The notes under the pieces were generated by a model. It was not told the DNA's origin. It did no database searches and worked only from the letters and a program-made list of their open reading frames with translations. Both the position numbers and the translations under genes were made by a program. This document shows, piece after piece, positions 1,025 through 22,453 of a stretch of 64,000 nucleotides of DNA (its first letter is position 1; every line of letters starts with the position of its first letter). Source of the DNA: Desulfomonilia bacterium (GTDB lineage: Bacteria > Desulfobacterota > Desulfomonilia > UBA1062); contig DATCTV010000034.1 of assembly GCA_036567785.1 (NCBI GenBank), positions 166,468-230,467 on the forward strand, in the 5' to 3' direction.

Positions 1025-2992
1025 TTAGATAAGCCCCAGTTTTTCAATGGTTCTTTTATCCGGTTTGCCGTCTTCATCAAAGCCTATATGCCTGTAGTAG
1101 GCTTTAATGAATGGAATAATATCGATTGTGACGTTTTTGTGCACGCCGTCTTTTCTGGGCGGGATGCCCAATGCGCGCATATTGACATCTATTTTCAAAG
1201 CGCCTTCGCGGTCATTGAACAGCTGACGCAGCGTCTGAATGCGCCAGCCTGTTTCAAGAAGCTCTTCGGGCGTGATATCCCAGCCGGTTATCGCGCTGAA
1301 CATTTCCCATAATGGATACATGCCGCACCATACGCTGAATTCACAGAATCCCAGAGAGTTGAATGCCTGTTTGAATTTCACCGCCCGGGCCTGGCCTTCA
1401 CCTTTTGCTTCCGGATCTTTTCCCGTCTTGAATTTTATGCCCTTTGCAAACCGGTTTGCTGAACCCATCAGAATAAAATCCACGCCACCTGCAGTATGAC
1501 GGCCCGGGGTCGGGTCAGCCGCATAGGTCAGCATCAGTCCGGGCATCTTGCGTGCATCGTGCATGGGCAACTCCTGGCCCCCTGAGGTAACTGCAAATTC
1601 TTCGGAGCCGGCTATTATCTTTGACGCGGCCTTTGAACCATTTGCAAGCAGGTCACCGATACCTTCCCTGTTGACAATGAGCCTGAGCAGCGGAAGTATA
1701 GTCTCTGCTTTTCCCCATCCGGGAAGGAACCCTTCCGGGAAATCTCTGCACCTGAAATCCTCTTTTGCAAGCAGCCCTTTTTCCACACATTCAATTGTGT
1801 ATGCAACAACACCTCCGGCTGATATGGAATCTACTCCCTCACGGTTCAGGTATTCGTTGATTTCCATAATTACTTTAAAGTCACTGTTAAGTATAAGTCC
1901 GCCGAATGCCGCTATTGTTTCATATTCAGGTCTGTGCGTCTCCTTTTCATGGTAGTGCAGTTGAGGCACGGTTAATATGGCACCGCACTGAACAGGGCAC
2001 CCGAAGCATCCATATGCCTTTGTCCTGTACGGCAGGCTTGCATTCTTATTCAATTTCCTTGAAATCTTTTTTTTGAAATCTTTTACATCACCTGCATAAT
2101 TTTTGATGGGGGTATCCCCGGTTTCATGGCTTATAACGGTCGCAAAGGGCGTCCCCCATCTGTGCAGGAAATATCTGAACAGAAGAGGTGCAAATGCCTG
2201 GAATTTGCCTGCAATATCAAAACCGATCCTGAAAAGTCTCATGAAAAATGTGAAATTGTCCGCGACTGCCATCATCATTCCGATAACAGGATTCGTCATG
2301 GTGAATTTCAGCATCTGATTGTATTCCCTGGAAAGCTCTACAGCCTTTTTTCTGTCTGCATAATCTCTTCTGGCCGAGCCCCTTATGCACAGCGCCTTGA
2401 GATTTTTGCTGCCCATCACAGCCCCGAGCCCGCTTCTGGCCGCTATCCTGCCCCTGTCACAGACAATGCCGGAAAAAAGAACTTTATTTTCTCCGCCTTT
2501 ACCTATTACAGCAACCTTAAATCCATTTCCGTGTTTTGAAATAAGGCTTTCCTCGGCTTCAACAACATCTTTTCCCCAGATGTCCGAAGCATCGCAAAGT
2601 TCTTTTTTATCATTATTTATCAACAGATAGACCGGCTTATCGGATGCCCCTGTAAAAAATATGGCGTCATAGCCTGCCTGTTTAATGACCGGTCCGAAAT
2701 GTCCGCCTGAATTTGCATCTCCCCATCCTCCGGTCAGCGGACTCTTGCCGCAGACCATGTAACGGCCGGTGAAAGGAGCCGGGGTGCCTGTGAAAAGCCC
2801 GGGGCAAAAACCAAGGATATTATCGGGACCGAGAGGGTCGCAGCCCGCTTTCATTCTGGAATAGATGTAGTATGCGCCCAGCCCGTAACCGCCAAGATGT
2901 TTTCTGTAGATTTCCTCGGGCGGCGCTTCCTCGGTAAAAGTCCCGGACGATAGATCCACCCAGAGAATCCTGCCCATGTAACCGTTCGGCAT
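1025..2992 (-). CDS. Tungsten-dependent aldehyde:ferredoxin oxidoreductase family protein
   Basis: The 655-residue protein has the usual AOR length. The N-terminal pterin-binding domain is recognisable (GYMGRILWVDLS start, then GRYMVCGKSPLTG and GGHFGP). A CFGCPVQC motif near residue 329 and a later GFCEF cysteine can supply the four ligands of the [4Fe-4S] cluster. AOR enzymes interconvert aldehydes and carboxylic acids using ferredoxin and bind a tungsten bis-pyranopterin. The gene is the last of a long minus-strand run that includes sugar-phosphate and lipid-transport genes, so an aldehyde product of that pathway is a plausible substrate, by inference only. The start has a GAGG ribosome site, and a strong hairpin lies just upstream. 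Confidence 0.92.
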   Translation of the reverse strand: MPNGYMGRILWVDLSSGTFTEEAPPEEIYRKHLGGYGLGAYYIYSRMKAGCDPLGPDNILGFCPGLFTGTPAPFTGRYMVCGKSPLTGGWGDANSGGHFGPVIKQAGYDAIFFTGASDKPVYLLINNDKKELCDASDIWGKDVVEAEESLISKHGNGFKVAVIGKGGENKVLFSGIVCDRGRIAARSGLGAVMGSKNLKALCIRGSARRDYADRKKAVELSREYNQMLKFTMTNPVIGMMMAVADNFTFFMRLFRIGFDIAGKFQAFAPLLFRYFLHRWGTPFATVISHETGDTPIKNYAGDVKDFKKKISRKLNKNASLPYRTKAYGCFGCPVQCGAILTVPQLHYHEKETHRPEYETIAAFGGLILNSDFKVIMEINEYLNREGVDSISAGGVVAYTIECVEKGLLAKEDFRCRDFPEGFLPGWGKAETILPLLRLIVNREGIGDLLANGSKAASKIIAGSEEFAVTSGGQELPMHDARKMPGLMLTYAADPTPGRHTAGGVDFILMGSANRFAKGIKFKTGKDPEAKGEGQARAVKFKQAFNSLGFCEFSVWCGMYPLWEMFSAITGWDITPEELLETGWRIQTLRQLFNDREGALKIDVNMRALGIPPRKDGVHKNVTIDIIPFIKAYYRHIGFDEDGKPDKRTIEKLGLI

Positions 2993-3008
2993 TTACGATT
3001 CCTCACCT

Positions 3009-3038
3009 AGACCCTCTCCATTAACAGGGAGAGGGTCT
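3009..3038 (-). other. 11-bp perfect hairpin between DUF1302 and AOR genes
   Basis: The arms 3009-3019 and 3028-3038 are exact reverse complements (AGACCCTCTCC / GGAGAGGGTCT) with an 8-base loop. On the minus strand the hairpin follows the DUF1302 stop and sits directly before the AOR ribosome site. No T-run follows, so it is more likely an RNA processing or stabilising stem, or a dispersed repeat, than an intrinsic terminator. Confidence 0.6.
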
Positions 3039-3045
3039 GGATATA

Positions 3046-4872
3046 TTAGAAGTTGTAGGTAGCCATAATGCTAAATTCATCCCTCCTGTCCATCATGCCG
3101 AGAGTGCCTGAATAATTGTTTGCCCCTGAGAAAAAATAATTGATTTCAAAATCCCAGTTCCTGTAAGTATATGCAACAGACGGTATGAAAACCAGAGACT
3201 GCGGTTCAAGTTCATACATCACGACAAGCTGCGGTGCAAGGTTTGCGGTCAGGTACGAAAGCCTTGTAATTAATATAAAAGTGTTCGAATATTCCGGATA
3301 ATAAACAACATCAAACTGACCGTCGAAGTCATCATCCCATGGTTCGTACCACGGTTCAAGCAGATGGTCTTTTTTCCATCCGAGTATCTTGCTGCCGACA
3401 TATTCGAGTTTGAACATCACATCATCACTGGGAATGATATCAGAAATGACAGGGATATGTTTTTTCGGTGCAAGCCATGAGAAATTGTAGAACTTGTCTA
3501 TTCCGATACCGTATTTTATCACATCGTATTTTTCTACTTCGCCTGTGGAAAACGGCAGAATCATTTTATCTATGTTTTCAAGGTCTTTTTTGTAGAATGT
3601 GTTTAGAAACCATACCACGTCGTGAGGCTGTCCATCAAAGTATATTGTTATTTTGGGGTTGAACTGGTCCACCATATCCGAAAGCTTGCCCGGCGTCATA
3701 TACGGTACCTGCGAAAAATATGCGAACTCGCCTCTGAATACGGTGTTTATTGCTTCCATCTGGTAGTTGAAGCTGCCTCCATAAACGTTGACATTATCAC
3801 GTGTAAGATCCACTTCAAGCAGTTGTCCTCCAAGTATCGAACCCATGGGGTTCTTGGGATTCACCTGTGTTATATCATAGATGACAACGGGCTGGAGGGC
3901 ATCCGAATTGATAACAGCAACCGGAATATCAGAATACATTCTGTAATATACCAGATTCAGATTAAGCCCATGAAATACAAAGCCGGCCTTAAGACCGTAT
4001 CTGTCGGAATCAATGTCGCTGTTCACCTGGTTCATATTGAGCTTGAGCGATGCCATTGAAAAAGGATTTTTATAATCATCCACAGTATCTCTGCCGATAC
4101 TGGGCAGAATCGGAGAACCGTCAATCATGGGTTCCTCATAGGTATTGTCAATCTTTCCGGGTACATAATACGCTTCGAAGGACATCGAATCGAAGGGACC
4201 CACATAGGCAAACGCATAATTGGCGCGGGCCATCCAGAGCGGTATGCGCCTTTCAAGAAGGTCGACTGCAAGCGATGATGTGTCGAGAGGGTTTTGTCCC
4301 TCAAGAATTCTGAGCGTACTCATCTCGCCCCATGCCATAACCTGCTTCCCCAGCCGGCAGAATGCCCCGCCTTTCATAAAATCGACATATGCCATGTACA
4401 GATCAACATCCCATTTCAGGTGATTGATCTGGTCACGGTTGTCATAGGTGTAATATCGCCTCTGGTGCTCATAATCTCCAGTTGCCTCTTTCCATTTCTG
4501 GTTATAATTTCTGTCAGGGTTGTTTACGTCATAATAATCACCGTCGGTTGTCAGTATCTTTGCGCCGTAATCATATGCTCCGTCGTAAAAAACTCTGCCC
4601 TGGAGAAAACACTTCGACTTGAAGCCTTTGCCAAGGTCGCCGAAATCGCCGCTGAATTCAGCAAGCAGAAGATTCCTCTGGCTGATAAGGTCGCCTTTTT
4701 CAATGGGAATAGGGTTGTTGACAGGAGTATCCTCCGTGCGCCATGTCGCCTGGGACTTTGCCTTGCCTATCATCTTGTAATTGCCTGATTCGTCAGTCCA
4801 GAAGGCATAAGCCTGAGCCTGGACAAGCAGAACAAGAATAAACATCAAAAACATTATTCTAAGTTTTTTCAT
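3046..4872 (-). CDS. DUF1302 family outer-membrane protein
   Basis: This 608-residue protein has a clear signal peptide (first 23 residues or so, ending AYA) and a body of alternating aromatic strands. It ends in Phe (MATYNF), typical of an outer-membrane beta-barrel. The sequence matches the DUF1302 pattern, for example the GKQVMAWGE segment and the LLERRIPLWMARANYAF region. DUF1302 proteins are often encoded with DUF1329, YCF48 and MMPL/RND genes in loci for steroids, terpenoids and other hydrophobic compounds, and all of these are here. The start overlaps the transporter gene by 14 bases and has a GGAGGTG ribosome site. Probable role: outer-membrane entry or exit of a hydrophobic substrate. 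Confidence 0.85.
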   Translation of the reverse strand: MKKLRIMFLMFILVLLVQAQAYAFWTDESGNYKMIGKAKSQATWRTEDTPVNNPIPIEKGDLISQRNLLLAEFSGDFGDLGKGFKSKCFLQGRVFYDGAYDYGAKILTTDGDYYDVNNPDRNYNQKWKEATGDYEHQRRYYTYDNRDQINHLKWDVDLYMAYVDFMKGGAFCRLGKQVMAWGEMSTLRILEGQNPLDTSSLAVDLLERRIPLWMARANYAFAYVGPFDSMSFEAYYVPGKIDNTYEEPMIDGSPILPSIGRDTVDDYKNPFSMASLKLNMNQVNSDIDSDRYGLKAGFVFHGLNLNLVYYRMYSDIPVAVINSDALQPVVIYDITQVNPKNPMGSILGGQLLEVDLTRDNVNVYGGSFNYQMEAINTVFRGEFAYFSQVPYMTPGKLSDMVDQFNPKITIYFDGQPHDVVWFLNTFYKKDLENIDKMILPFSTGEVEKYDVIKYGIGIDKFYNFSWLAPKKHIPVISDIIPSDDVMFKLEYVGSKILGWKKDHLLEPWYEPWDDDFDGQFDVVYYPEYSNTFILITRLSYLTANLAPQLVVMYELEPQSLVFIPSVAYTYRNWDFEINYFFSGANNYSGTLGMMDRRDEFSIMATYNF

Positions 4873-7180
4873 TTTCAGCCACCTCCTCAGTATTCATTGT
4901 GAATAAAACCGGTAAGAAAAGCATGGCGAATATCCCGCCAGATATTGCTGTAACCGCAAATCCCATTATCATGAGCGCCTGGAACCTCATTCCTATGAAG
5001 AACCAGGGCAGGCACATCAACAACACGAGTACGGATGCAAAAAGGATTACTCCGGTCTTTCTCCTGTCCAATGCCTTTGAAACAATCACAACAGCTGCGC
5101 CTGTTCCTGTCGCCGCCACTGCTGCAAATGGCATGGAAAGAGGTATCCCCATGAATAACAGCTTCATTGAAACCGTCATCCCGGAAATCATCACAATGAC
5201 AGAATAAAAAACGCCCGTTTTTAATGAGCGGAACAGGAGTATTGAAAGGATCAGAATTATTGCCGCCATTGCCGCAAGTATTACCTTGAAGCTGCCTTCA
5301 ATCCCGTCATTTATCAGTTTTGTCATGCCGAGCATACTGCCGCCAAGGGAGAATGTAACTGATTCAGACGGATGAGCATCGATATATTCCTGCATCAGTT
5401 TTGCATATTCGTTGATGCTTTCTCTATCCCTGTAAGGGAAAAACGGCGAGATTGTCGCTTGCGTATATGAAGAGTCAATGAATTCCTTTACATCGCTGTT
5501 TTCGGTCACCGTACCGCCCAGGCCTTTTCCTTCCCGGTCAGTTTCGGGCAGCGTCTGCCACTTCGGGCTGCCGTCGCTCATGGTGTAACGGGCCATCTCA
5601 ATCATATAATCAAATGCAATTGAGTCCTTGGCCCCTGAACGGTATTTCAGGAAATTGCTGAAAGCGCTTATATCCTGAAGGGCTTCCGGTTTGCACAGAC
5701 CGCCTTCTTCCTTTGCCTTCACATAGACAAGGAGTTGATTAGGACCCATGAATTTTTCCGTAAAGAGATTGAAAGCCTTGTTCCATTGATTAGTGCACCA
5801 TAGATAAGAAGACCCCGGGATGTTGTCTCCAGACTTGTTTGAATAGACCGAGAAGACGCCAAGGGCGAACAATGCTATAAGAACAGCAATTGCCAGGTAT
5901 TTTATTCCTCCTGTCGGTGAAAGCGCCGAGGAAATCCCTTCCCAGGAGCGCGGCTTATTTTGAGGCTGAGGCAGGATCGAGGCAATCGCAGGCACGGCGA
6001 GGCATGTAACAGCAAGCACCATCAAAAGACTGATCGCACCAATAATGCCTAACTCTCTTAAAATCATAACCTTTGCAGCCAAAAGCGCGAGAAATGATAT
6101 CGCTGCTATAGCCAGACCGGCAGGGACCTTTCCCCATGATGCAATGACAGCCGATATCCTGTCGCTTCCCTCTGATACGGCCCTGTAGTAACCGTCCATG
6201 ACCAGCACCGAAGCCGCCACACTCGTTATTGCAATTGTCAGCGGGAACAGGACCGCCATCGGATTCAAGCTTCTTCCGAGAAGGCTGAAGAGGCCGAGTC
6301 CGGCTCCTGCGGGGAATATCATTGCTATTATCGAGATAAGCACAGACTGCCAGCTCCTGAAATAGACTGCCACCATTGCTATCATCAGGACAAACATCAA
6401 CCCGCCTGCAACAGGCATCTGTGTCATGCCCATCCTTGTCATGTCGGCCTTTATGACCTCTTCACCCATGAACAGAAGCTCGTAATTCTTATCATTCACT
6501 TTTTTCTTCAGTTCATCGAGTTTCTTCATCAGCTTCGGGTCGAATTCGCCCTCTGCATCAGCCTTGTATTTTTCAAATGTCCTGCCGGCCTTTTGTTTGT
6601 CATCGAGCAGCTGCCACGCAGACTGGGCCGTCTGCTCCACGCTCATGAAGTTTGCCGTGATCATAACCGCCTTGCCGTCATAGGATACATACTTGCCTGG
6701 TCCCATCGGGTTTGTGGCGACTCTTTCCTTGAGTTCTTCAAACTGTGCCGGGGTTTCCGGCCAGGTGCTTCCCATGACCGATGCGATGTTAAGGCCGTTT
6801 GCAGTGAATATATAATTGTCCATCCCCTTTGTAAGCGAGGTAACCGAGGTCGGATTTATTACCTCGCAGTCCATAAGGGCTTTTGTTATTTCATCTATTT
6901 TATTGATCGCAACGGTATTGTAGATGTCGCCGTTTTTCGCTTTAAGCAGGCAGACAAGCATATTGGTTCTGGGGGCCATTTTTTCAATAGGCTTGAGACC
7001 ATTCAGGAAAGGGTGCCCGTCAGGGTACATGCTTGCCATAGGGTCTTCGTCAAGTTTTACATCCTTAAGAAATACCATGCAAAGGGCGCATGCGATCAAA
7101 ACCGCAGCAAAGACAGGAATCCTGAACTGGTAAATCAATGCGCCGAGCACTGCCTTAACCGGAGTATTGTTCTCTTTCAT
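4859..7180 (-). CDS. MMPL/RND superfamily transporter
   Basis: This large inner-membrane protein has two repeated halves, each with one N-terminal helix, a large periplasmic loop and a bundle of helices (about 12 in all), as in MMPL/RND lipid and hydrophobe exporters. I place the start at the ATG at 7180 (773 residues), because GGAGG lies 7 bases upstream and the ATG shares one base with the YCF48 stop (TGATG). An upstream in-frame start at 7213 would add 11 residues without a good ribosome site. Together with DUF1302, DUF1329 and YCF48 it forms a putative envelope-spanning transport set. Substrate and direction cannot be read from sequence. Confidence 0.88.
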   Translation of the reverse strand: MKENNTPVKAVLGALIYQFRIPVFAAVLIACALCMVFLKDVKLDEDPMASMYPDGHPFLNGLKPIEKMAPRTNMLVCLLKAKNGDIYNTVAINKIDEITKALMDCEVINPTSVTSLTKGMDNYIFTANGLNIASVMGSTWPETPAQFEELKERVATNPMGPGKYVSYDGKAVMITANFMSVEQTAQSAWQLLDDKQKAGRTFEKYKADAEGEFDPKLMKKLDELKKKVNDKNYELLFMGEEVIKADMTRMGMTQMPVAGGLMFVLMIAMVAVYFRSWQSVLISIIAMIFPAGAGLGLFSLLGRSLNPMAVLFPLTIAITSVAASVLVMDGYYRAVSEGSDRISAVIASWGKVPAGLAIAAISFLALLAAKVMILRELGIIGAISLLMVLAVTCLAVPAIASILPQPQNKPRSWEGISSALSPTGGIKYLAIAVLIALFALGVFSVYSNKSGDNIPGSSYLWCTNQWNKAFNLFTEKFMGPNQLLVYVKAKEEGGLCKPEALQDISAFSNFLKYRSGAKDSIAFDYMIEMARYTMSDGSPKWQTLPETDREGKGLGGTVTENSDVKEFIDSSYTQATISPFFPYRDRESINEYAKLMQEYIDAHPSESVTFSLGGSMLGMTKLINDGIEGSFKVILAAMAAIILILSILLFRSLKTGVFYSVIVMISGMTVSMKLLFMGIPLSMPFAAVAATGTGAAVVIVSKALDRRKTGVILFASVLVLLMCLPWFFIGMRFQALMIMGFAVTAISGGIFAMLFLPVLFTMNTEEVAENEKT

Positions 7181-8241
7181 CACTGAACCTCCGGGATCAC
7201 AGGGATCTGCCATGAGACATTCCCGTTTTCATAAACACCTGTTATTCCGTACTGGCCTGTAATGAGGCCTTTTGTGCCTGAAGGGGTACGTCTGAGATCC
7301 ACTCCCGACAGCCAGGCCCGTTTCAAAATTTCCGGAATACCAATCTTTTTCCATGTCGCGCCTGCATCTGATGAGACAATAACTGTTCCGGCTGAACCCA
7401 CGGCAAGACCGGTCCGGCCTTCAAGGTCTATGCCGAATATTTCAGGCTCATGTACTACGGTGTCAGTTTCAGCCCAGGTCAGGGCATTGTCTTCAGACAA
7501 TAAAATCGCCATATCGACTCCGGCCGCGGCAAGCCCCCCTCCTGCTCCACCGGCCAATGTAAATATTGTCCTGCCGACCTGATTTTCAGAATCATACAAT
7601 GGTGACTTTATTTCAGCCCACGACTTCCCTGCATCTTTTGTCAGAAAAATCCTTCCCATGTAGCCTGCAACACAGATCGTGTCTGCATCGATCATTTTAA
7701 CCCCGAAGAGGTTGAATCCCGCAGCCGGGGGCTGTCCTTCCTTTGCCTGTTCTTCTCCCGGACGGGATGCCTTGATCCATGTTGCGCCGCCGTCCTGAGT
7801 AATAATCACGGTCGAGTCAGCGCCCGTTGCACATGCATTTAATGCGTCAAGGGCATGTATTCCGAGCAGGGAAACTTCAACTCCCGACCTCTGGGCCGTC
7901 CAGGTTTTCCCTCCGTCTGTCGTGTGCAGTATTACCCCTGACTGGCCAACAGCCCATCCGCTTTTATCATCGCTCATGCTCAGATCAAGAAGAGCAGCCC
8001 TTGTCGGCGTCTGAATTTCATGCCAGGTTTTTCCCGCATCTGCACTCAGATATGCTTTTCCGAGATCTCCAACGACAAGCATGTCTGTTTCAGTCAGCAC
8101 GGCACCCGCAAACAGGTTTGATTCAATCTGATTTCTCACAATCACGGCCGTTTTCTGATGCGGCCTTGCCAGTAAGACTGCAATAGAAACGGCTACAGCA
8201 ACCGCAATCAGCACGATAAGTATATTTCCCGCTTTCTTCAT
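7180..8241 (-). CDS. YCF48/BNR-repeat periplasmic protein
   Basis: The protein has an N-terminal membrane anchor or signal (residues 5-27), then repeated beta-propeller blades with the DAGKTW / DGGKTWT / DAGATWK signature typical of YCF48-like (photosystem II stability factor-like) and BNR proteins. The ATG at 8241 is preferred over a TTG two codons upstream because TGAGG lies 8 bases before it. In proteobacteria such proteins sit between DUF1302/DUF1329 and MMPL genes, probably as an adaptor or assembly factor of the transporter. It has no relation to photosynthesis here. It is translationally coupled to the MMPL gene. Confidence 0.85.
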   Translation of the reverse strand: MKKAGNILIVLIAVAVAVSIAVLLARPHQKTAVIVRNQIESNLFAGAVLTETDMLVVGDLGKAYLSADAGKTWHEIQTPTRAALLDLSMSDDKSGWAVGQSGVILHTTDGGKTWTAQRSGVEVSLLGIHALDALNACATGADSTVIITQDGGATWIKASRPGEEQAKEGQPPAAGFNLFGVKMIDADTICVAGYMGRIFLTKDAGKSWAEIKSPLYDSENQVGRTIFTLAGGAGGGLAAAGVDMAILLSEDNALTWAETDTVVHEPEIFGIDLEGRTGLAVGSAGTVIVSSDAGATWKKIGIPEILKRAWLSGVDLRRTPSGTKGLITGQYGITGVYENGNVSWQIPVIPEVQ

Positions 8242-8251
8242 AATCAATGCC

Positions 8252-13512: not shown

Positions 13513-13646
13513 AAATCCTCCTGATAATATTGTACAAAAGCAATTCATGATGCGGTTTAATTTGGTCAGACCAATATACCCCAGATAGAATCAAAATTCC
13601 ACAGGAGAAGAAAGCAAAAATTATTTCATCATGTTTAATATTTCAG

Positions 13647-14565: not shown

Positions 14566-15474
14566 TCAGTTCAATTCTCCCATCAGCACCCGGGCGTTTT
14601 TGAAAAAGAACTTTTCACGCAGGGTTGAGCCGCCCTTTGTGGCAGCCATGCCGACCCTCACTGCATATTTCGGCAGGGAGAACGGGAAATCGGAAGCATA
14701 GAGCACACGCTCATGCCCCATGCGCCTGAATGCCTCCCTGATGTTCCTGGCACACTGGAAGCTGGTATCCACGAACACATTCACGTATTTCCGGGCAAAC
14801 TCCCATACCAGCTCGAACTGCAGCATGCCCATATGGCCGAATATGAACGGCACATCGGGGAATGCCTCGACAAGCTTTTCGTATGTGCTTACCTCGCCGT
14901 ACTGGTGTCTTTTTAATTTTGGTATGTAATACTGACTGACCCCGGAGTGCATGATTACAGGTTTTTTATAACGCCTGTACTCTTCCATGATTTCAAACCA
15001 GAGGGGGTCTGTCAGGGGAAGATTCTGAATTATTGGGTGGATCTTAATCCCCAGACAGCCGGACTCCATAAAACGGTGAAGTTTTCCGATCCGCAAAGGA
15101 TCCCTCGGGTCGACAGAAGCAAAAGGGAAAAGCCGCGGCGAGTTCTGGCCTGAATCCATGCGCGATCTGCACATTTTAATAATATCATCGGTTTTGACAA
15201 ACGGCTCTATGGGCAGAACCAGGCAATGTGTAACGCCTGCCTGAGAAGCGTAAAAATCCAGGTTACGCTCCGTACCGAGGTTGTTGCGCTGATGGTTGTG
15301 AATAACCTCGAGGTAGCGGGTGATCGTTCGCATGCCGAATGGAGGCCTGCTTGTACGATAACCCGTCAATTCGGCGATCATGCCGGGGCTTAAGGCCGGT
15401 TTGGTATATGCCTCGTCAAGTGGCCAGCCGTTGATCAGATCGCCTGTATGCGTGTGGATATCGACGATCTTCAT
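14566..15474 (-). CDS. Amidohydrolase family metal-dependent hydrolase (COG2159-like)
   Basis: The 302-residue TIM-barrel enzyme opens with DIHTHTG, the HxH metal pair at residues 7 and 9. Later metal or catalytic positions are visible in KIHP, IMHSG, FGHMG and YASDFPF (terminal Asp). This order is typical of amidohydrolase-2 enzymes, which hydrolyse C-N or C-C bonds or decarboxylate acids. It lies between the EamA permease gene and a repeat-filled spacer. The reaction here is unknown. Retained metal ligands suggest an active enzyme. Confidence 0.85.
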   Translation of the reverse strand: MKIVDIHTHTGDLINGWPLDEAYTKPALSPGMIAELTGYRTSRPPFGMRTITRYLEVIHNHQRNNLGTERNLDFYASQAGVTHCLVLPIEPFVKTDDIIKMCRSRMDSGQNSPRLFPFASVDPRDPLRIGKLHRFMESGCLGIKIHPIIQNLPLTDPLWFEIMEEYRRYKKPVIMHSGVSQYYIPKLKRHQYGEVSTYEKLVEAFPDVPFIFGHMGMLQFELVWEFARKYVNVFVDTSFQCARNIREAFRRMGHERVLYASDFPFSLPKYAVRVGMAATKGGSTLREKFFFKNARVLMGELN

Positions 15475-15560: not shown

Positions 15561-15738
15561 ATTCCGATTTGCATTCAAGATGATAACGAGGAGGCCAGGA
15601 GAAAATGGGATCTCGTGCATCCTGTTTCGCTCCTCAAGCCGAAGGCGCAGAGAAAGCGACGCAGGCATACTCAGTTATGTATGTCGAGGAGCATTCCGAC
15701 ACAGCCGACAAAGTTAGCGCTTGAATGCGAAGCGGAAT
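15561..15738. repeat. 178-bp imperfect palindromic element (MITE- or REP-like)
   Basis: The terminal arms are 15561-15579 and 15720-15738: ATTCCG and GCATTCAAG pair with CTTGAATGC and CGGAAT, with a four-base unpaired stretch between. Inner arms GCTCCTC (15629-15635) and GAGGAGC (15686-15692) and a central CATAC/GTATG pair extend the fold into one long hairpin. The right end runs into the stop codon of the SCP2 gene. No transposase frame is present, so it looks like a non-autonomous mobile or dispersed repeat dropped into the operon. Confidence 0.6.
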
Positions 15739-16067
15739 TAAATGATGCCCAGCTTCTGCATCTTGATGCCGGCTGTCATGCTCCCCTTGAACTTGAGTTT
15801 TCCGGTCATGAATGCCTTCTGGCCGGAAAGTTCGCCATTCACCAGCTTGACGAAATCATCGTCCTTCATCTTCAGGCTGATGGTAGGATTTGCCGTTTCG
15901 CCCGGTGAAACCTTGGCCTCTTTGTTTTTGATGGCGAGAAACCATTCACCTGCATTTACCCCTGTAATGTTGAACTGGATTGTCATATCCAGTCCTTCGA
16001 GTTTGTCCGTTGTGAGTTTGGATGGCAGAACCACTTCAATGAATTCCTTCGGTGTACTTACTGGCAT
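15738..16067 (-). CDS. Stand-alone SCP2 sterol-binding domain protein
   Basis: This 109-residue protein is a single SCP2 domain: a beta-sheet with FNITGVNAGEW, then SLKMKDDDF and a helix followed by MTGKLKFKG, the typical end of the lipid-binding pocket. TAAGGAGG lies before the ATG. SCP2 domains bind sterols, fatty acids or acyl-CoA. A second SCP2 domain sits inside the 1275-residue fusion in the same run, which supports a hydrophobic substrate or product for the whole locus. The stop codon lies in the end of the palindromic element. Confidence 0.85.
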   Translation of the reverse strand: MPVSTPKEFIEVVLPSKLTTDKLEGLDMTIQFNITGVNAGEWFLAIKNKEAKVSPGETANPTISLKMKDDDFVKLVNGELSGQKAFMTGKLKFKGSMTAGIKMQKLGII

Positions 16068-16116: not shown

Positions 16117-17142
16117 TTAACGTGGCTCTTTCAAAGATATCCTGGCCAACTGTACGGGAAGCACAGCCCCTGTTTCAATATAATACCTGACAGCCTTTAA
16201 CATCGCTATGCGTATGTCATTCTGCGGCAGACCCAGTTCATTGACGGCCTTGGTGCAATCGACAAACTCATCATATCTGAGATGAAGCGCCTGTTCAACA
16301 GCCGCCAGCGGCGGTTTTTTTGTTATATCGGCTATGCGTTCGTTGACCTCGGCGACAACCCTGACCACAGCCCTGGGTATTTTCACGGCAGGCTCTTTCA
16401 ATCCGGTAAGCAGAGAAAGCTCATGGAATATCTCCTTGAGGTGGATGTTTTTGTTGCCGAGTATATATCGCTGGCCTGTTCGCCCCCTTTTTTCCGCATT
16501 TACAAATCCGATCGCAAGATCATCCACGTCGATGAGGTTCATTCCCACATCCACATAGGCGAACATCTTGCCGTTGAGGAAATCCAGGATGGTTCTGCCG
16601 GTAGGAGTCGGCACCCAGTCGCGCAGGCCGATAGGCGAACACGGATTCAGAATGACCATAGGAATCCTGTCCATATACTTCCAGGCCAGCATCTCGCTCA
16701 GATATTTGCTCTCGCGGTACGGCTGCCTTCTGCAGTCCTTCGGGTCCGGAAAATCGTTTTCATTGCTTATTCTATGAGGGAAAAACCCTACAGACGACAC
16801 CGAGCTTGTGTAGATGACCTTTTCCAGATCACGGTTGAGAGCCGCATCCAGGATGTTACGGGTGCCTTCGATATTCACGTGACGGATGTAATCGCCACCC
16901 TTCGGATGCCAGTGCCTGTAGATTGCTGCAAGCTGGTACAGTTTGTTGCAGCCATCGAGAGCTTTTTCTAGGGATGGCCTGTCAAGCAGGTCACCCTTTA
17001 CTATCTCGATGTCAAGCCCCGTGAGGTTCCTGATGTCTCCGTCCGGGCGCACCATGGCTTTAACTTCCTGTCCGTCGTCAATAAGTGCCCTGACGACAGC
17101 CGAACCGATTATACCGCCGGCTCCCGTAACAAGAGTCTTCAT
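16117..17142 (-). CDS. NAD(P)-dependent epimerase/reductase, extended SDR (HpnA/DFR-like)
   Basis: The 341-residue extended SDR has the nucleotide motif VTGAGGIIGSAVV at the N-terminus and the catalytic YRESK (YxxxK) in the middle with a preceding SSVSS serine. It resembles dihydroflavonol-4-reductase and hopanoid-associated sugar epimerase (HpnA) proteins. The start overlaps the aminotransferase stop by 4 bases (ATGA), so the two are translationally coupled. Probable role: oxidation, reduction or epimerisation of a hydroxyl or keto group in the pathway. The exact substrate is unknown. Confidence 0.82.
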   Translation of the reverse strand: MKTLVTGAGGIIGSAVVRALIDDGQEVKAMVRPDGDIRNLTGLDIEIVKGDLLDRPSLEKALDGCNKLYQLAAIYRHWHPKGGDYIRHVNIEGTRNILDAALNRDLEKVIYTSSVSSVGFFPHRISNENDFPDPKDCRRQPYRESKYLSEMLAWKYMDRIPMVILNPCSPIGLRDWVPTPTGRTILDFLNGKMFAYVDVGMNLIDVDDLAIGFVNAEKRGRTGQRYILGNKNIHLKEIFHELSLLTGLKEPAVKIPRAVVRVVAEVNERIADITKKPPLAAVEQALHLRYDEFVDCTKAVNELGLPQNDIRIAMLKAVRYYIETGAVLPVQLARISLKEPR

Positions 17143-18515
17143 GACATCAATTTGGATTCCATAATGGGAATCGCCTTATCGAGAGTATCTATTATCCGGT
17201 CTATCTCCTTTTTCTCGATGCACAGGGCAGGTGCGATGCATACAGTCTCCATGGATGACGAACGGATAAATATGCCCCTGTCCCAGCACTCTTCGGCGAG
17301 CACATGCGGGGCCGAGTTTTCAGGCAGTATCGCCGTACGCTTCTCCTTGTCGTCAACCAGTTCGATGGCAGCCACCAGACCGAGCCCGCGGACATCGCCG
17401 ACAGAACGGTGCCTGGTGAGCGTCTTTAGACCGTCAAGCATGTATTTGCCGTTCTCGGCCGCCTTCTCAACCAGGCCTTCCTCTTCGATCACCTTGATGT
17501 TCGCAAGGCCCGCCGCACATGCGACCGGATGGTTCATGTATGTAAACCCGTGCATAAGAGGCAGTCTCTCGTCCTGCAACTGGCCTATGGTATCATATAT
17601 GTCCGCGTTTATGACCGAAGCGCCCAACGGTATCTGGCCTGAACTGATGCCCTTTGCAAAGCTGAGCATGTCGGCGCGTATCCCCCCCCAGTACTCGTGA
17701 CCGAACATTTTGCCGGTGCGTCCGAAGCCCGTGATGACTTCGTCAAGAATAAGAAGAATGTCATTTTTATCGCATATTTCCCTTATCTTCGGAAAATACT
17801 CATCCGGAGGTACGATGACCCCTCCGCTTCCGATTACAGGTTCGGCGATGAAGGCAGCTATTGTTTCAGGGCCTTCGTTCTTGATGGTCTCTTCCATTTC
17901 CTCAATGCATTCGAATGCGCAGCCCGGATAGCTCTTTTCAAACTCGCACTGGTAGCAATATGGCGCCGAACACTGGATAAAGCCCTCGGCGAGCGGCTCT
18001 ATGTTCCAGTGGAACGGGAAAATGCCGGTGGCCGCTGTGGTGGAGAGCCCCATGCCATGATAGGAAAACCGGCGAGAAAGGATCTTGTTCTTGTCTGTCT
18101 GGCCCTTCAACTGCCAGTAGAGCCGTGCCAGCTTAAGGTTGGTCTCGTTTGTCTCACTGCCGCCGCAGGTAAACCATGTCCGCGTCAGATTGTAGGAAGG
18201 GTCAAGCATGGAGGCGACCTTTTCGGCCAGCTCGATTGAAGGAACCGTGCCGTGTCCGTGGAACGAGGTGAAGTATGATATCTTTTTCATCTGCTCATTA
18301 ACGGCCTCGATCACCTTGGGATGGTTGTGGCCGATAGCGACGCACCACAGACCTGAAAATCCGTCGATGTATTCTTTGCCGTCAAGGTCCCACATATATA
18401 CCCCCTGGCCCTTGACTATTATTCTGGGCGGCTCGTGGTCGAAATCTTTTGGATGAGTCAGCGGATGAATAAGATACTTCTTGTCCAGCGCAATCAGTTC
18501 CTCTTTTGATTTCAT
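17139..18515 (-). CDS. Class III PLP-dependent aminotransferase
   Basis: The 458-residue fold-type I aminotransferase carries the PLP lysine in SFAKGISSGQIPLGA (near residue 286), the LILDEVITGFGRTG Asp that contacts the cofactor, and GGSETNETNLK near the phosphate-binding site. Family members include omega-amino acid:pyruvate and putrescine aminotransferases. GGAGGAG precedes the ATG. It is coupled to the downstream epimerase gene and lies 31 bases after the SDR stop. It could transfer an amino group to or from a terminal aldehyde. The substrate is unknown. Confidence 0.88.
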   Translation of the reverse strand: MKSKEELIALDKKYLIHPLTHPKDFDHEPPRIIVKGQGVYMWDLDGKEYIDGFSGLWCVAIGHNHPKVIEAVNEQMKKISYFTSFHGHGTVPSIELAEKVASMLDPSYNLTRTWFTCGGSETNETNLKLARLYWQLKGQTDKNKILSRRFSYHGMGLSTTAATGIFPFHWNIEPLAEGFIQCSAPYCYQCEFEKSYPGCAFECIEEMEETIKNEGPETIAAFIAEPVIGSGGVIVPPDEYFPKIREICDKNDILLILDEVITGFGRTGKMFGHEYWGGIRADMLSFAKGISSGQIPLGASVINADIYDTIGQLQDERLPLMHGFTYMNHPVACAAGLANIKVIEEEGLVEKAAENGKYMLDGLKTLTRHRSVGDVRGLGLVAAIELVDDKEKRTAILPENSAPHVLAEECWDRGIFIRSSSMETVCIAPALCIEKKEIDRIIDTLDKAIPIMESKLMS

Positions 18516-18546: not shown

Positions 18547-19368
18547 TCAAATTCCTGTCATCTGCGCAGAAATCTCCCAGAGTCTCGATGCAAGCACAGG
18601 ATCGAGAGCGTCTTTCTTTGGCCTTTTCGCCTTTTTTTTCTCATAATATTCACCTGAGACCCAGTCCTTTCCGGGTTCTCCTCCTGCAAGCCATACAAGA
18701 GTTTCCGCGCCTTTTTCCGGTGAACTCAGGAACAGGTGTTTCATCGGTGAATTATAAAGATAATAGATGAAACCCCTGGCATCACGCCCGAAGCTTGATG
18801 CGATATTGCCCGGATGGAAAGCGGCCGTGCTGATTCCTTGCGCAGACCATCGCCTGTGAATCTCTTTCATGAAAAGGATGTTTTCGAGCTTTGAAGCGCA
18901 ATATGCCTTCATGGCGGTATATTTTTTCTCGTTCTCAAGATCGTCAAGACTCACCTTGCCGTACTTGTGGCCGACGCTCGAGGTTATGATGATGCTGGCC
19001 TTTGATGATATCAGCCTTTCTTTCAAAAGATTGGTTAAGAGGAATGCCGCCAGGTGATTCACCTGGAATGTGATTTCATGGCCGTCCTTTGTAAGTGTCC
19101 GGTCGTTCCAGGTCATGCCTGCGTTGTTTACAAGAACGTCGATCTGTCCGTATTTCTGAAGAAGTTCTCCGGCAATCCTTCTTACCTGTGACAGATCCGC
19201 GTAATCAGCGGTGAATCCGTCTGTTCCCAGTTCATCCGCTATCGCTTTAGTCTTTTCCTTGGAGCGTCCGACCACCACGACCCGCGCCCCCCGGCGGTGA
19301 AGCATCCTTGCGGCGTTTGCCCCTATGCCGTCACTGGCTCCTGTGATTATTATTGTTTTCTTTTCCAT
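18547..19368 (-). CDS. Short-chain dehydrogenase/reductase
   Basis: A classical SDR of 273 residues from the ATG at 19368 (AAAGGA 6 bases upstream; a TTG two codons earlier is less likely). It has TGASDGIG for NAD(P) binding, NNAG, the catalytic serine in TSSVGHKYGK and YCASK. The C-terminal layout resembles retinol dehydrogenase/WW-oxidoreductase-like SDRs, which often act on lipophilic alcohols. The gene overlaps the upstream alcohol dehydrogenase by about 38 bases. Confidence 0.87.
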   Translation of the reverse strand: MEKKTIIITGASDGIGANAARMLHRRGARVVVVGRSKEKTKAIADELGTDGFTADYADLSQVRRIAGELLQKYGQIDVLVNNAGMTWNDRTLTKDGHEITFQVNHLAAFLLTNLLKERLISSKASIIITSSVGHKYGKVSLDDLENEKKYTAMKAYCASKLENILFMKEIHRRWSAQGISTAAFHPGNIASSFGRDARGFIYYLYNSPMKHLFLSSPEKGAETLVWLAGGEPGKDWVSGEYYEKKKAKRPKKDALDPVLASRLWEISAQMTGI

Positions 19369-20584
19369 CTGCAATCCTTTCCGTTTGCTTCATTTCAAAA
19401 ACGACCTTGATGACCGACCCCGGGTTTTCCCGTATTGCCCGGAAGGCTTCCCTGTAATCTTCAAGAGCAAATCGATGAGAGATAAACCCGTCGAACCCGA
19501 TACGTCCTTCCACCGCCCATTTTATCGCAAGCTCAAATGAACTGATCTTCCTTCCTTCGTATTCTTCCATGCCGTGAGCGTTGACGCCTGTCATTCTGAG
19601 TTCCTGATTCCACAGCGGAGTGATGTCAAAGTCTACAGGCTTCAACTGTGTTCCAACCATCACATAATCACCTCGCGGCGCTAGCCAGCGCAGCGAATCG
19701 TGGATGGTCGAGCTTGATCCGACCGAATCATAAATAACATCAAACCCTCCAAGTAGAGTGCTGTTTTTCATGTGCCCGTGAAAGACCTGTGCGCCGGTGG
19801 CAATACCTGCGGCATCATATGCATTTCCACCCGGCAGTGCCTCTGCTCCCATGCGTTTTGCAAATTCCAGTTTGAGAGGGAACGGCTCCGTCACAAAGAC
19901 CCTGCTCTCTGGGCAAACCGCTTTTGCTATCTGTATGATGTTGAGCCCTATCGTCCCGGCACCGATCACCAGTATCTTATCACCGGGCGATGGCAGCCTC
20001 CTGAACACCGTGTGTAAAGAAACCGCCGCAGGTTCGACAAGAACCGCCTGTTCATCGGTAAGCTCCTCCGGAATCCTGATAAGCTGCTCTTCATGAGCGA
20101 TAAATATATCGCTGAATGCCGCGCCAAGGTCCGAAGGCATCTTCCTTGAAGGAAAAGCCTGACATAGAGGAAAATTTCCTTCACTGCAGGGCAAACACGG
20201 CGGATCGATTTCAAGGGTGGCGCAGCAGGCAGTATAGCGCTGCATGGCCACCCTGTCGCCGGTCTTCAGGCCGGTGACGCCCGGGCCTGTTTCAACAACC
20301 CTCGCTGCCATTTCATGTCCCATGAAGACTTCGGGGAAAGGAGGGAGGGCTGCCATGGAGATACTAAGCCCCGCCTTTATGAAAAAAAGCGCGATATCCG
20401 AACCGCAGATGCCGGCCAGTTCGGGTTTTACCCGGACAAAACGTGGCCCGGGCAAAGGTTTGTCAGGATACGACCTCAGCCTGACGGGCGAGAGGCGGGA
20501 ATAATACAGGCCCGGAAACTTCGGGCCCAATCCCTTTGTAGCCAGAATCCTCAAAGGGCTGATGTCAAACACCAGCGTTTTCAT
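19331..20584 (-). CDS. Zinc-dependent alcohol dehydrogenase (MDR family)
   Basis: This medium-chain dehydrogenase of 417 residues has catalytic zinc ligands in GICGSD and MGHEM, and a structural-zinc lobe with four cysteines (CATLEIDPPC, LPCSEG, PLC). The Rossmann motif is VIGAGTIGLN. The ATG at 20584 is preferred to the adjacent TTG at 20587; AGGTGA lies just before. It follows the transketolase C-terminal gene by 4 bases. The N-terminus is longer than in typical MDR enzymes by some 40 residues. It probably oxidises a secondary alcohol or polyol in the pathway. Confidence 0.88.
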   Translation of the reverse strand: MKTLVFDISPLRILATKGLGPKFPGLYYSRLSPVRLRSYPDKPLPGPRFVRVKPELAGICGSDIALFFIKAGLSISMAALPPFPEVFMGHEMAARVVETGPGVTGLKTGDRVAMQRYTACCATLEIDPPCLPCSEGNFPLCQAFPSRKMPSDLGAAFSDIFIAHEEQLIRIPEELTDEQAVLVEPAAVSLHTVFRRLPSPGDKILVIGAGTIGLNIIQIAKAVCPESRVFVTEPFPLKLEFAKRMGAEALPGGNAYDAAGIATGAQVFHGHMKNSTLLGGFDVIYDSVGSSSTIHDSLRWLAPRGDYVMVGTQLKPVDFDITPLWNQELRMTGVNAHGMEEYEGRKISSFELAIKWAVEGRIGFDGFISHRFALEDYREAFRAIRENPGSVIKVVFEMKQTERIADGKENNNNHRSQ

Positions 20585-20588
20585 CAAT

Positions 20589-21584
20589 TCACCTGTTTAC
20601 AAGTTCAAGCACAGATTTGCGTATCCCGTCGCTGTCCAGTCCGTATCGCGGATAGAGGTCTTCGGGATATCCTATCGCAGAATAACAGTCCGGAACCCCT
20701 ACGCGTTTGAACCTGACTCCAAGGCCCGCATCGGAAAGTGTTTCGGCAACCGCCCCCCCAAGGCCTCCGATTATCGAGTGTTCTTCGGCGGTGATGATTC
20801 CGCCGGTCTCACGCGCCGCTTTCAGGACCGCCTCGACATCAAGAGGCTTTATTGTGTGCATGTTGATAACCCGTATGCCGATGCCCTCGTTCTCGAGCGA
20901 ATCCGCAGCATCCATAGCCGCTTTTACACATACCCCGCAGGCGATCACTGTCATATCACTTCCGTAATCCCGCATGACGATGCTCTTACCGAACTCGAAA
21001 TCATATGTATCATCAGTATAGGCGAGCGGTTCGAGCGAGCGGCCGATTCGTATGTAGATGGGGCCGTTGTAGTTTTCACCGGCGCGAACGGCCTTGCCGG
21101 TCTCTATGGTGTCAGCAGGCACCACCACGGTCATGTTGGCCATTGAGCGCAGGATGGCGATATCCTCCGTGGCATGGTGCGTGGTTCCTCCATTGCCCAT
21201 GGAAAGCCCGCTGTGGGTTGCAATCATCCGCACATTGAGATTCGGATAGGCTATGTCGGTACGGATGGCCTCGGCGCAGCGTAGCGAAAGGAACACGGCC
21301 ATGCTTGAAAGATAAGGCAGCTTGCCGCTCACGGCCATTCCTGCAGCAGCCGCCACCATGTTTGTTTCGGCTATCCCGAAGTTGAAGAAACGCTCGGGAT
21401 AATACTTTTTGAATGTGCCGGTCTTGTTGGAGCGCATCAGGTCAGAGGTTAGAACAACGATGTCCGGATTATTCTTTGCCATATCGGAGATGACCTGTCC
21501 GTAGACCTCGGCCTGCGAGATCATGTCGTATGTCTCCATGGTGAAGACAAACCCCTCAATTATTAAGCCGGCGGTATCACTCAT
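20589..21584 (-). CDS. Transketolase, C-terminal (pyrimidine plus transketolase-C) subunit
   Basis: This 331-residue protein equals the second half of a transketolase. The pyrimidine-binding domain carries the catalytic glutamate in FGIAETNMVAAAAG, followed by SMGNGGTTHHATED and a transketolase-C domain. Its start codon overlaps the stop of the N-terminal subunit by one base (TAATG) with GGAGGG 7 bases upstream, so the two halves are made together. Split transketolases move two-carbon units between sugar phosphates. Several are specialised in sugar catabolism rather than the pentose phosphate pathway. The context here points to a dedicated role. Confidence 0.92.
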   Translation of the reverse strand: MSDTAGLIIEGFVFTMETYDMISQAEVYGQVISDMAKNNPDIVVLTSDLMRSNKTGTFKKYYPERFFNFGIAETNMVAAAAGMAVSGKLPYLSSMAVFLSLRCAEAIRTDIAYPNLNVRMIATHSGLSMGNGGTTHHATEDIAILRSMANMTVVVPADTIETGKAVRAGENYNGPIYIRIGRSLEPLAYTDDTYDFEFGKSIVMRDYGSDMTVIACGVCVKAAMDAADSLENEGIGIRVINMHTIKPLDVEAVLKAARETGGIITAEEHSIIGGLGGAVAETLSDAGLGVRFKRVGVPDCYSAIGYPEDLYPRYGLDSDGIRKSVLELVNR

Positions 21585-22453
21585 TATTTTACCCTCCCTG
21601 CCGGACAGGTGCGGTCGATGCTGTCACATGCGTCTTTTGCGGTCTTTGTGTCCAGCATGGTGTAGTGATATATCGGGTTGTTTTCCATGAAGTCCACCCC
21701 CTTGCCCTTTACGGTTCGGGCTATGACAAGCTGCGGTACACGGCCCTCAGCAGGTTCCAGACCGTCGAACGTATCTATCAGGGACGCCATGTCGTGTCCG
21801 TCAATATCATATACCTTCCAGCCGAACGATTCCCAGCGTTCTCTGAGTGGTTCAAGTGCCATGATCTCCTCGGTGGCTCCATCCAGACTGAAGAAGTTGC
21901 GGTCTATTATAGCCACCATATTGCCCAGCTTGAAATGACTTGCTGCCATTGCCGCCTCCCATACCATGCCTTCGTCCAGCTCTCCGTCGCCCATTAGAAC
22001 AAAAATTCTGTATGAACGCTTGTCAAGACGGGCCGACAGGGCCATTCCCACGCCGATTGAAAGTCCGTGGCCCAAAGAGCCGGTGCTCATCTCAACCCCT
22101 GGTATCTTGTGCATATCCGGATGCATGCCGAAGGGACTGTCGAGCTTGTTGAATGTTGAAAGCCATTCGCCGGGAAAGAATCCGAGATCGGCCAGTATGG
22201 GAATATAGCCTATTGCCCCATGCCCCTTGGACAGTACGAAGCGGTCTCTCTCAGGCCAGCTGGGGTTCTTGGGGTCAATCCTTAAAACATGATAATAAAG
22301 GGCTACGATGATGTCCATCATGGAGAAGGAGCCTCCCATGTGGCCTCCGGTTGCGACTGCGGCAAGCTCGATAACTTTTTTCCTTAGATCCCTGGCCTTT
22401 TCATCAAGGAAGTCGAGAAGTTCAGCCCTGTTCTTAAATTCCTTTGGCTGCAT
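21584..22453 (-). CDS. Transketolase, N-terminal (thiamine diphosphate) subunit
   Basis: The 289-residue N-terminal half of a split transketolase. The thiamine diphosphate motif starts at GDGELDEG and ends at the RN of AIIDRN. Substrate or cofactor histidines are seen in GHMGGS, KGHGAIG and GSLGHG. The ATG at 22453 has a strong AAGGAGGTG site; a TTG five codons earlier is unlikely. It is the first gene of the long minus-strand run, so the promoter should lie in the spacer 22454-22645 that it shares with the divergent penicillin-binding protein gene. Confidence 0.92.
   Translation of the reverse strand: MQPKEFKNRAELLDFLDEKARDLRKKVIELAAVATGGHMGGSFSMMDIIVALYYHVLRIDPKNPSWPERDRFVLSKGHGAIGYIPILADLGFFPGEWLSTFNKLDSPFGMHPDMHKIPGVEMSTGSLGHGLSIGVGMALSARLDKRSYRIFVLMGDGELDEGMVWEAAMAASHFKLGNMVAIIDRNFFSLDGATEEIMALEPLRERWESFGWKVYDIDGHDMASLIDTFDGLEPAEGRVPQLVIARTVKGKGVDFMENNPIYHYTMLDTKTAKDACDSIDRTCPAGRVK

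Follow-up and report, generated by a model that had tools for sequence, protein, structure and literature searches.

Why should genes for sugar-phosphate enzymes stand in one run with genes for lipid carriers and for the transport of hydrophobic compounds? The question was raised by a 64,000-nt stretch of DNA (the window) from an uncultured anaerobic bacterium, for which the original prediction described sixteen closely spaced or overlapping genes and proposed a single substrate with a greasy and a polyol part. All the domains it named were found, and their genes form a single minus-strand run (22453 to 1025), but this run comprises 15 genes; the FGGY kinase, the 2-hydroxyacid dehydrogenase, one SCP2 domain, and the class II aldolase form a single 1275-aa protein. 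The spacing is short as described (-44 to +122 nt), with the sole exception of 263 nt between the free-standing SCP2 gene and the amidohydrolase gene. Gaps of 98-263 nt separate blocks within the run, so internal promoters are allowed. A divergent PBP1b gene at 22646 and a convergent 4Fe-4S gene (9-938), both on the plus strand, bound the run upstream and downstream, respectively.

Sugar-side genes and their SCP2 partners

The run opens with the two subunits of a split transketolase, the N-terminal ThDP subunit TKN (21584..22453; PF00456, 4e-45), whose ATG at 22453 is preceded by AAGGAGG, and the C-terminal subunit TKC (20589..21584; PF02779/PF02780). The ThDP and catalytic motifs are divided between them: GDGELDEG...IIDRN is intact in TKN, and GIAETNM with the catalytic Glu lies on the other chain. 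The closest solved structure to TKC is 6yaj (280 bits), the split transketolase of Carboxydothermus (6yaj/6yak), which likewise consists of two subunits. Unlike that enzyme, the window type is sister in our tree to a clade with a constant SCP2 partner: in every one of the 14 genomes with such a transketolase, a double-SCP2 protein (dSCP2) is encoded directly after it, and the window genome itself holds a TKN-TKC-dSCP2 locus outside the window. SCP2 genes are numerous in this genome (12 copies) and in that of a second genus, G004 (10 copies), compared with 4-8 in eight relatives. SCP2 folds may serve structure rather than lipid binding.

The next genes encode a zinc-dependent polyol/sugar dehydrogenase (19331..20587; PF08240/PF00107) and a short-chain dehydrogenase (18547..19374; PF00106, 9e-34; YxxxK present). 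The best NCBIfam match of the former is scyllo-inosose 3-dehydrogenase, below cut-off, and its relatives (52-53% identity) adjoin TKN-TKC in two other genomes (G007 and G116). They are followed by a class III aminotransferase, AT3 (17139..18515; PF00202, 9e-101; PLP lysine motif), and an HpnA-like NAD-dependent epimerase/reductase (16117..17142), which reaches 319.2 bits against the TIGR03466 cut-off of 367.65 and has 3wj7 as its closest solved structure. Together with its G004 counterpart, the HpnA-like protein is sister to the HpnA clade linked to squalene-hopene cyclase (SHC), with moderate support (92/96) and a long branch, and its nearest homologues outside G004 mostly adjoin SHC. The HpnA-like protein beside a class III aminotransferase recalls HpnA and HpnO of hopanoid synthesis, but the window gene lies in no hpn operon, and SHC was found neither in the window genome nor in G004. 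The absence of SHC from the window genome rules against a hopanoid biosynthesis cluster.

A free-standing SCP2 lipid-carrier protein (15738..16067; PF02036, 4e-19) comes next; relatives with 54-60% identity are found in a sugar locus of G004 and, in G042 and G116, adjoining or close to AmeB genes. The run also contains an amidohydrolase (14566..15474; PF04909, 7e-21) and a tungsten aldehyde:ferredoxin oxidoreductase, AFOR, as its last gene (1025..2992; PF01314/PF02730; closest solved structure 1aor), which had previously gone unnamed.

The fusion protein and the Ame-type transport cassette

The single four-domain protein, FUS (8252..12079), combines an FGGY kinase (residues 1-450), a 2-hydroxyacid dehydrogenase (527-850), an SCP2 domain (940-1018; PF02036 above cut-off, 3e-13), and a class II aldolase (1071-1246). 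About 20 genomes share this architecture; they belong to Chloroflexota, Myxococcota, Thermodesulfobacteriota, Mycobacterium, and Clostridiales. The distribution of the FUS family is patchy (6 of 395 genomes of the phylum). The Glu and three His metal ligands of the aldolase type are invariant in all 18 FUS aldolase domains compared. The top structural match of this domain is DrdA with DHAP (6btg; Z-score 28.1, r.m.s.d. 1.9 over 203 residues), tied with fuculose-1-phosphate aldolases (Z-scores 27-28), compared with 23.6 for a 4-epimerase. Judged from sequence and fold, the domain is of the ketose-1-phosphate aldolase kind, with their metal-site residues and a putative aldol-cleavage activity.

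The 5-deoxyribose disposal pathway of DrdK, DrdI, and DrdA (PMC6079011) and the L-fucose and L-rhamnose pathways pair a kinase with a class II ketose-1-phosphate aldolase and yield DHAP and an aldehyde, as the kinase and aldolase domains of FUS suggest. Unlike the Drd enzymes, FUS has a kinase of the FGGY type rather than an MtnK/MtnP-like kinase or phosphorylase, and an MtnA-like isomerase was not found in the run. A further difference is the fusion of these enzymes to a 2-hydroxyacid dehydrogenase and SCP2; this fusion hints that the substrate is lipid-bound. Across genomes, the neighbours of FUS include AFOR in two loci (L071 and L094; in L071, from Chloroflexi, directly before FUS and 42% identical to the window AFOR), aldehyde dehydrogenase in Mycobacterium, acyl-CoA ligase, and thiolase. 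P450 and KshA-type (steroid) Rieske oxygenase genes lie near FUS in three genomes.

FUS is embedded in a transport cassette of the order AmeB, FUS, AmeC-AmeD-AmeA, where all four Ame-type genes stand together: an AmeB-like periplasmic DUF1329/LolA-type protein (12202..13548), an AmeC-like YCF48/BNR propeller (7180..8247; PF14870, 3e-18), an AmeD-like RND/MMPL transporter, putatively of the HAE3 type (4859..7213; PF03176 above cut-off, 6e-6; TIGR00921 at 6e-10, far below its cut-off), and an AmeA-like DUF1302 outer-membrane protein (3046..4872; PF06980, 3e-29), a single copy in the window genome. The earlier DUF1329 assignment was correct, though visible only through orthologues: Pfam DUF1329 (PF07044) does not reach the window protein itself but matches those of G004 (58% identity; 3e-16) and G116 (52%; 1e-14). 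A DMT/EamA-type inner-membrane transporter precedes the cassette (13647..14546; NF038012, 4.5e-8, below cut-off); its relatives adjoin HpnA in G004 (57%) and AmeB in G116 (31%).

The same four families, with outer-membrane DUF1302, periplasmic DUF1329/LolA-like and YCF48-like, and inner-membrane HAE3 RND members (the HAE3 assignment of the window transporter being tentative), constitute AmeABCD, the apolar-monoterpene system of Castellaniella defragrans (PMC6394551, PMC10866462). PP_0765/0766/2018/2019 of Pseudomonas putida, related to Tween 20, likewise include DUF1302 and DUF1329 members along with an efflux transporter and a periplasmic protein. In contrast to these systems, the window cassette carries a fusion-enzyme gene between AmeB and AmeC and is accompanied by sugar-head enzymes.

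Conserved co-occurrence in other genomes was found in part. Nine genes of the run recur in the second genus with 40-72% identity, as the block AFOR-AT3-HpnA-DMT (54-72%; AFOR 54%, AT3 72% and adjoining the HpnA-like gene) and the block AmeB-FUS-AmeC-AmeD-AmeA (40-57%), spread over at least two contigs with the closest transketolase pair on a further one; the full 15-gene set was seen in the window genome only. With nine genes recurring in a second genus and the fusion recurring across phyla, the association of the genes is beyond chance.

A possible breakdown route and its candidate substrates

The fusion of SCP2 to sugar enzymes in about 20 genomes, the SCP2 partners of related split transketolases, and the lipid and steroid-type enzymes beside FUS all support the idea of one substrate with greasy and polyol parts. 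The run probably forms one catabolic unit that acts on an amphiphile taken up from outside, in which a polyol or amino-polyol head is C-C bonded to the hydrophobic part. By analogy with the Ame and PP_0765/0766 systems, the AmeABCD-like proteins would carry the lipid across the envelope. Inside the cell, the hydrophobic part might then be gripped by SCP2 carriers, and by FUS through its own SCP2 domain, during processing of the head, as domain fusion and gene pairing suggest. Any amine would be stripped by the aminotransferase, and a ketose or aldose could be made from the head by the three dehydrogenases (zinc-dependent, short-chain, and HpnA-like). From there, the FGGY domain might phosphorylate C1 of a ketose and the aldolase domain release DHAP and a lipid aldehyde, in the manner of the Drd and fucose pathways; alternatively or in addition, the split transketolase might transfer two carbons of the lipid ketose onto a sugar phosphate, with a lipid aldehyde left behind. 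AFOR would oxidise this aldehyde to a carboxylic acid, and a 2-hydroxy acid intermediate could be taken by the 2-hydroxyacid dehydrogenase.

Bacteriohopanepolyols may be the best-fitting and leading substrate, with sphingoid bases as the main rival. The original prediction named a bacteriohopanepolyol or a glycolipid as candidates; the former gains from the HpnA-like protein in a genome without SHC and from the KshA/P450 context, but has a serious competitor in a sphingoid-type aminopolyol. Hopanoids are a tentative choice, sphingoid-type bases a more doubtful one, and the remaining probability falls roughly to other polyol lipids. Without SHC in the genome, a bacteriohopanepolyol would have to come from an outside source. 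Ribosylhopane is chemically 5-hopanyl-5-deoxyribose (PMC12583986), so its ketose 1-phosphate would match the substrate of the Drd aldolase except that C5 bears a hopane. Aldol cleavage would give DHAP and a C32 aldehyde. We propose, as one possible reading, a lipid-tethered sugar pathway in anaerobes and aerobes, in which a bacteriohopanepolyol or similar C-C linked polyol lipid is broken down via the SCP2-fused kinase-aldolase and the SCP2-partnered split transketolase; the head would be isomerised or oxidised to a ketose and come off as DHAP or as a two-carbon unit, with a lipid aldehyde left over, in the hopanoid case the C32 aldehyde, oxidised further to C32 hopanoic acid.

A sphingoid-type long-chain amino-polyol is a less probable but still serious candidate. 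An aminotransferase would turn it into a 1,3-dihydroxy-2-ketone, which is what transketolase minimally requires of a donor. C1-C2 would be moved by the transketolase to a sugar phosphate, and the fatty aldehyde would pass to AFOR and beta-oxidation. To our knowledge, FumI pathways contain neither transketolase nor SCP2. FumI, a fumonisin-pathway aminotransferase of class III, acts on a long-chain aminopolyol: it removes the 2-amine from hydrolysed fumonisin, which is an analogue of sphinganine (PMC2933618). FumI-type aminotransferases, as a class closest to the aminopentol aminotransferase 6hbs (361 bits; next 168), share one operon with the split transketolase and SCP2 in two genomes, G414 and G076 (dSCP2-AT-TKN-TKC-dSCP2), and in G005 a FumI-type aminotransferase-dSCP2 pair lies within an acyl-CoA ligase/dehydrogenase/hydratase locus. 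The window genome has two such dSCP2 pairs besides its second transketolase locus, but all of these genes lie outside the window. The window AT3 was rejected as a FumI: it belongs to a different subfamily (about 24-27% identity), with 6io1 and omega-transaminases as its closest solved structures and 6hbs absent among the matches listed. A sphingoid substrate also leaves the HpnA-like protein and the KshA/P450 neighbours of FUS unexplained, and it gives no reason for the kinase and aldolase unless the base is of the phytosphingosine type.

Import by the Ame set of a triterpenoid, steroid, or lipid glycoside (saponin, steryl glycoside, or glycolipid), with the enzymes processing the freed sugar, seems unlikely. 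KshA and P450 near FUS, GH92 adjoining FUS in Mycobacterium, and, in G004, two SCP2 proteins accompanied by GH4, PIG-L, and kinases would fit it, but a glycoside hydrolase was not found in the window run, and a freed soluble sugar needs no SCP2 fused to a kinase and aldolase or paired with a transketolase. Improbable, too, is the view that the Ame transport genes, the transketolase, and the enzymes of a soluble sugar pathway are unrelated units brought together on one strand by chance. The single occurrence of the full set, the gaps between blocks, the Ame cassette without FUS in G116, FUS without Ame genes in other genomes, and a soluble FUS paralogue without SCP2 in the window genome speak for it; against it stand the position of FUS between AmeB and AmeC in both genera, the nine shared genes, and the recurrent SCP2 links on the sugar side. 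Synthesis or remodelling of a polyol lipid is very improbable despite the HpnA-like protein and class III aminotransferase known also from hopanoid synthesis, given that SHC was not found in the window genome, G004, or 21 of 25 FUS genomes, that FUS is so patchily distributed, and that breakdown is the direction indicated by the contexts with AFOR, acyl-CoA ligase, thiolase, and acyl-CoA dehydrogenase.

Bacteriohopanepolyols are major constituents of bacterial membranes and sediment organic matter, and hopanoids are hugely abundant. A fixed-phrase search of the open literature found no described breakdown genes for bacteriohopanepolyols or polyol lipids, and no described pathway with this gene combination was found. 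The cluster supplies named candidate enzymes for polyol-lipid breakdown and, if our preferred reading is true, a biological route for hopanoid side-chain breakdown. It also suggests a principle conserved across phyla, kinase-aldolase and transketolase chemistry on a lipid held by a fused or partnered SCP2; we know of no earlier description of sugar-phosphate chemistry on an SCP2-held lipid. The SCP2-aminotransferase-transketolase operon suggests, in turn, a lyase-free route for sphingoid-type bases.

Gene content and likely role of the run

The run comprises 15 genes on the minus strand, from 22453 down to 1025, in a host assembly (G000) of 3.96 Mb that is 97% complete in 64 contigs. The encoded proteins are, in order, the N- and C-terminal subunits of a split transketolase (TKN and TKC), a zinc-dependent dehydrogenase (ZnADH), an SDR, a class III aminotransferase (AT3), a protein resembling the hopanoid-associated epimerase HpnA, an SCP2 protein, an amidohydrolase, a DMT transporter, an AmeB-like protein, a 1275-residue four-domain fusion (FUS), AmeC-, AmeD- and AmeA-like proteins, and a tungsten aldehyde:ferredoxin oxidoreductase (AFOR). 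The computed intergenic spacing is between -44 and +122 nt, with the single exception of 263 nt between the SCP2 and amidohydrolase genes. The catalytic motifs of TKN, TKC, AT3, SDR, the HpnA-like protein and AFOR are all intact; the amidohydrolase has relatives at 28–36% identity only. A 309-residue 4Fe-4S protein (9-938, plus strand) is convergent with AFOR, and a 26% relative of it adjoins a ZnADH paralogue on contig C37 of G000 (L190:10898-11722).

We consider the run a probable pathway for the catabolism of a polyol-headed lipid. Its DUF1302, DUF1329-type, YCF48-like and RND proteins match AmeABCD of Castellaniella defragrans, in which AmeB is required for growth on monoterpenes (PMC6394551), and likewise PP_0765/0766 and PP_2018/2019 of P. 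putida, which are needed for Tween 20 (PMC10866462). These proteins might therefore import a lipid, which the SCP2 domains could bind. The DUF1329 membership of the AmeB-like protein was taken from orthologue scores (the 58% identical protein of G004 reaches 59 bits, where the cut-off is 23) because its AlphaFold model, built from two sequences only, had a pLDDT of 30.

Parts of the gene set recur in relatives. In G004, from the same family but another genus, AmeB-FUS-AmeC-AmeD-AmeA lie on one contig, preceded by an acyl-CoA dehydrogenase, a FadJ-like protein and an Ntn-hydrolase. A second contig of G004 has AFOR-AT3-TetR-HpnA-DMT, with window orthologues at 54–72%. G116 carries DMT-AmeB-AmeC-AmeD-AmeA with SCP2 farther along the same contig, and TKN-TKC-ZnADH with two aminotransferases on a separate contig; its 8.9 Mb genome has 57 DUF1329 matches. 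The order ZnADH-TKN-TKC-double-SCP2 is found in G007.

The four-domain fusion and its aldolase

FUS joins an FGGY kinase, a 2-hydroxyacid dehydrogenase, SCP2 and a class II aldolase. A search of genome contigs with an alignment as the query recovered relatives at 32 loci, where a single fusion sequence as the query gave no match. All four domains are present in about 20 of them, in Chloroflexota (including the cultured Bellilinea caldifistulae), Myxococcota, Thermodesulfobacteriota, Mycobacterium attenuatum and a Clostridiales bacterium, whose fusion has two SCP2 domains. The distribution is patchy (6 of 395 genomes of the phylum). A shorter relative of 888 residues without SCP2, with the aldolase as a separate gene, occurs in G000 and other genomes. 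The G000 copy of this soluble fusion (L012:8636-15833, contig C37) is accompanied by a pyruvate/indolepyruvate oxidoreductase-like ThDP enzyme and an FrhB-like protein, and soluble fusions were also seen in Smithellaceae and Actinomycetota; fused transketolases near them (L088, L090, L096) looked housekeeping-like and were given no weight.

A glutamate and three histidines are invariant in all 18 aldolase-domain sequences. In the fold search, which covered the aldolase half of FUS, the model (pLDDT 86) matched DrdA of 5-deoxyribose disposal (Drd) with bound DHAP (Z 28.1) and fuculose-1-phosphate aldolases (Z 27–28) more closely than ribulose-5-phosphate 4-epimerase (Z 23.6). The glutamate, which is an aspartate in L-ribulose-5-phosphate 4-epimerase, together with the fold ranking led us to reject the epimerase role, and these residues and this ranking make cleavage to DHAP and an aldehyde the most likely predicted chemistry.

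An aldolase acting on a lipid would need an aldehyde-oxidising partner, and the neighbours of FUS fit this. AFOR stands immediately before FUS in a Chloroflexi locus (L071, 42% to the window AFOR) and near it in L094, and an aldehyde dehydrogenase follows it in Mycobacterium. The neighbourhoods are lipid and steroid-type contexts: one type of acyl-CoA ligase (54–61%) lies upstream in L070, L079, L082, G276 and G352, and thiolases are adjacent in L083 and L097 and nearby in L074. G276 and G352 share the order acyl-CoA ligase, TetR, P450, FUS and a Rieske oxygenase with a KshA_C domain. Among solved structures, this oxygenase matches 3-ketosteroid 9-alpha-hydroxylase best, at 158 bits, while no unrelated entry exceeds 76. 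The ligase, P450 and KshA-like genes are again present in L079 (55–61%), and a KshA-like gene also in L074. Ntn-hydrolases (AAT/peptidase C69-like) lie on FUS contigs of one Thermodesulfobacteriota and two Chloroflexota genomes (L069:5760-7046, L072:15812-17185, L081:7354-8727).

Hopanoids as a candidate substrate

Hopanoid synthesis was rejected as the role of the run, since squalene-hopene cyclase (SHC) is absent from G000 and G004; it is also absent from 21 of the 25 FUS genomes. A hopanoid substrate would thus have to be exogenous. The HpnA-like protein scored 319 bits against TIGR03466, below the cut-off of 367.65. In a tree of about 50 homologues from the phylum, the SHC-adjacent members form one clade, whose sister, with moderate support (92/96) and on a long branch, is the pair from the window and G004. 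A transketolase beside HpnA in G066 and G279, first taken as split, proved to be a single DXS-size frame next to SHC; this is an ordinary hopanoid operon.

Catabolism of a hopanoid is the leading, if tentative, assignment. Ribosylhopane might be regarded as 5-deoxyribose carrying hopane on C5, and the Drd pathway converts 5-deoxyribulose 1-phosphate to DHAP and acetaldehyde (PMC6079011). The same cut on a hopanoid would give DHAP and a C32 aldehyde, which AFOR would convert to C32 hopanoic acid. Sediments commonly contain C32 hopanoic acids. We know of no other abundant polycyclic lipid class with a C-C bonded sugar chain, so the SCP2-fused sugar enzymes and the KshA and P450 neighbours point to hopanoids.

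Pairing of SCP2 with transketolase and aminotransferase

In G004 and on contig C44 of G000, an SCP2-similar protein of 253–262 residues comes after a split transketolase that shares about 50% identity with that of the window. This double-SCP2 protein was found in 15 of 395 genomes, and the copies with at least 43% identity stand directly after TKC in 14 of 14 cases. In the TKC tree, read unrooted because a bad row (L238) distorted the midpoint root, the window TKC is sister to the double-SCP2-linked ones; two further split transketolases of G000 fall elsewhere. In total G000 has four split transketolase pairs (contigs C34, C44, C4 and C17). SCP2 matches number 12 in G000 and 10 in G004, against 4–8 in eight relatives.

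A second double-SCP2 class has a class III aminotransferase as its partner at all six of its loci. For the one aminotransferase tested, the best match by a wide margin is the aminopentol aminotransferase 6hbs (FumI), which converts the 2-amine of hydrolysed fumonisin to a ketone (PMC2933618). Two pairs of double-SCP2 and FumI-type aminotransferase occur elsewhere in G000. Both pairings meet in an uninterrupted five-gene order, double-SCP2, FumI-type aminotransferase, TKN, TKC, double-SCP2, in G414 (L226:3979-8891) and G076 (L227:6457-11274), likely a separate lipid-aminopolyol pathway. For the run itself, a sphingoid-type base is a rather unlikely substrate; the remaining weight falls on other classes. 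Phrase searches of 5.39 million open-access papers gave no relevant match for hopanoid catabolism and no pathway joining transketolase, SCP2 and aminotransferase.

At L231 (G005 contig C12), a FumI-type aminotransferase and a double-SCP2 protein are embedded in a beta-oxidation locus that also encodes several acyl-CoA ligases and dehydrogenases. At L188 (G004 contig C116), two SCP2 proteins lie amid a GH4 glycosidase, a BadF-type kinase, a PIG-L deacetylase, a PfkB kinase, a KDPG-type aldolase, two GFO/IDH/MocA dehydrogenases and a BKACE protein.
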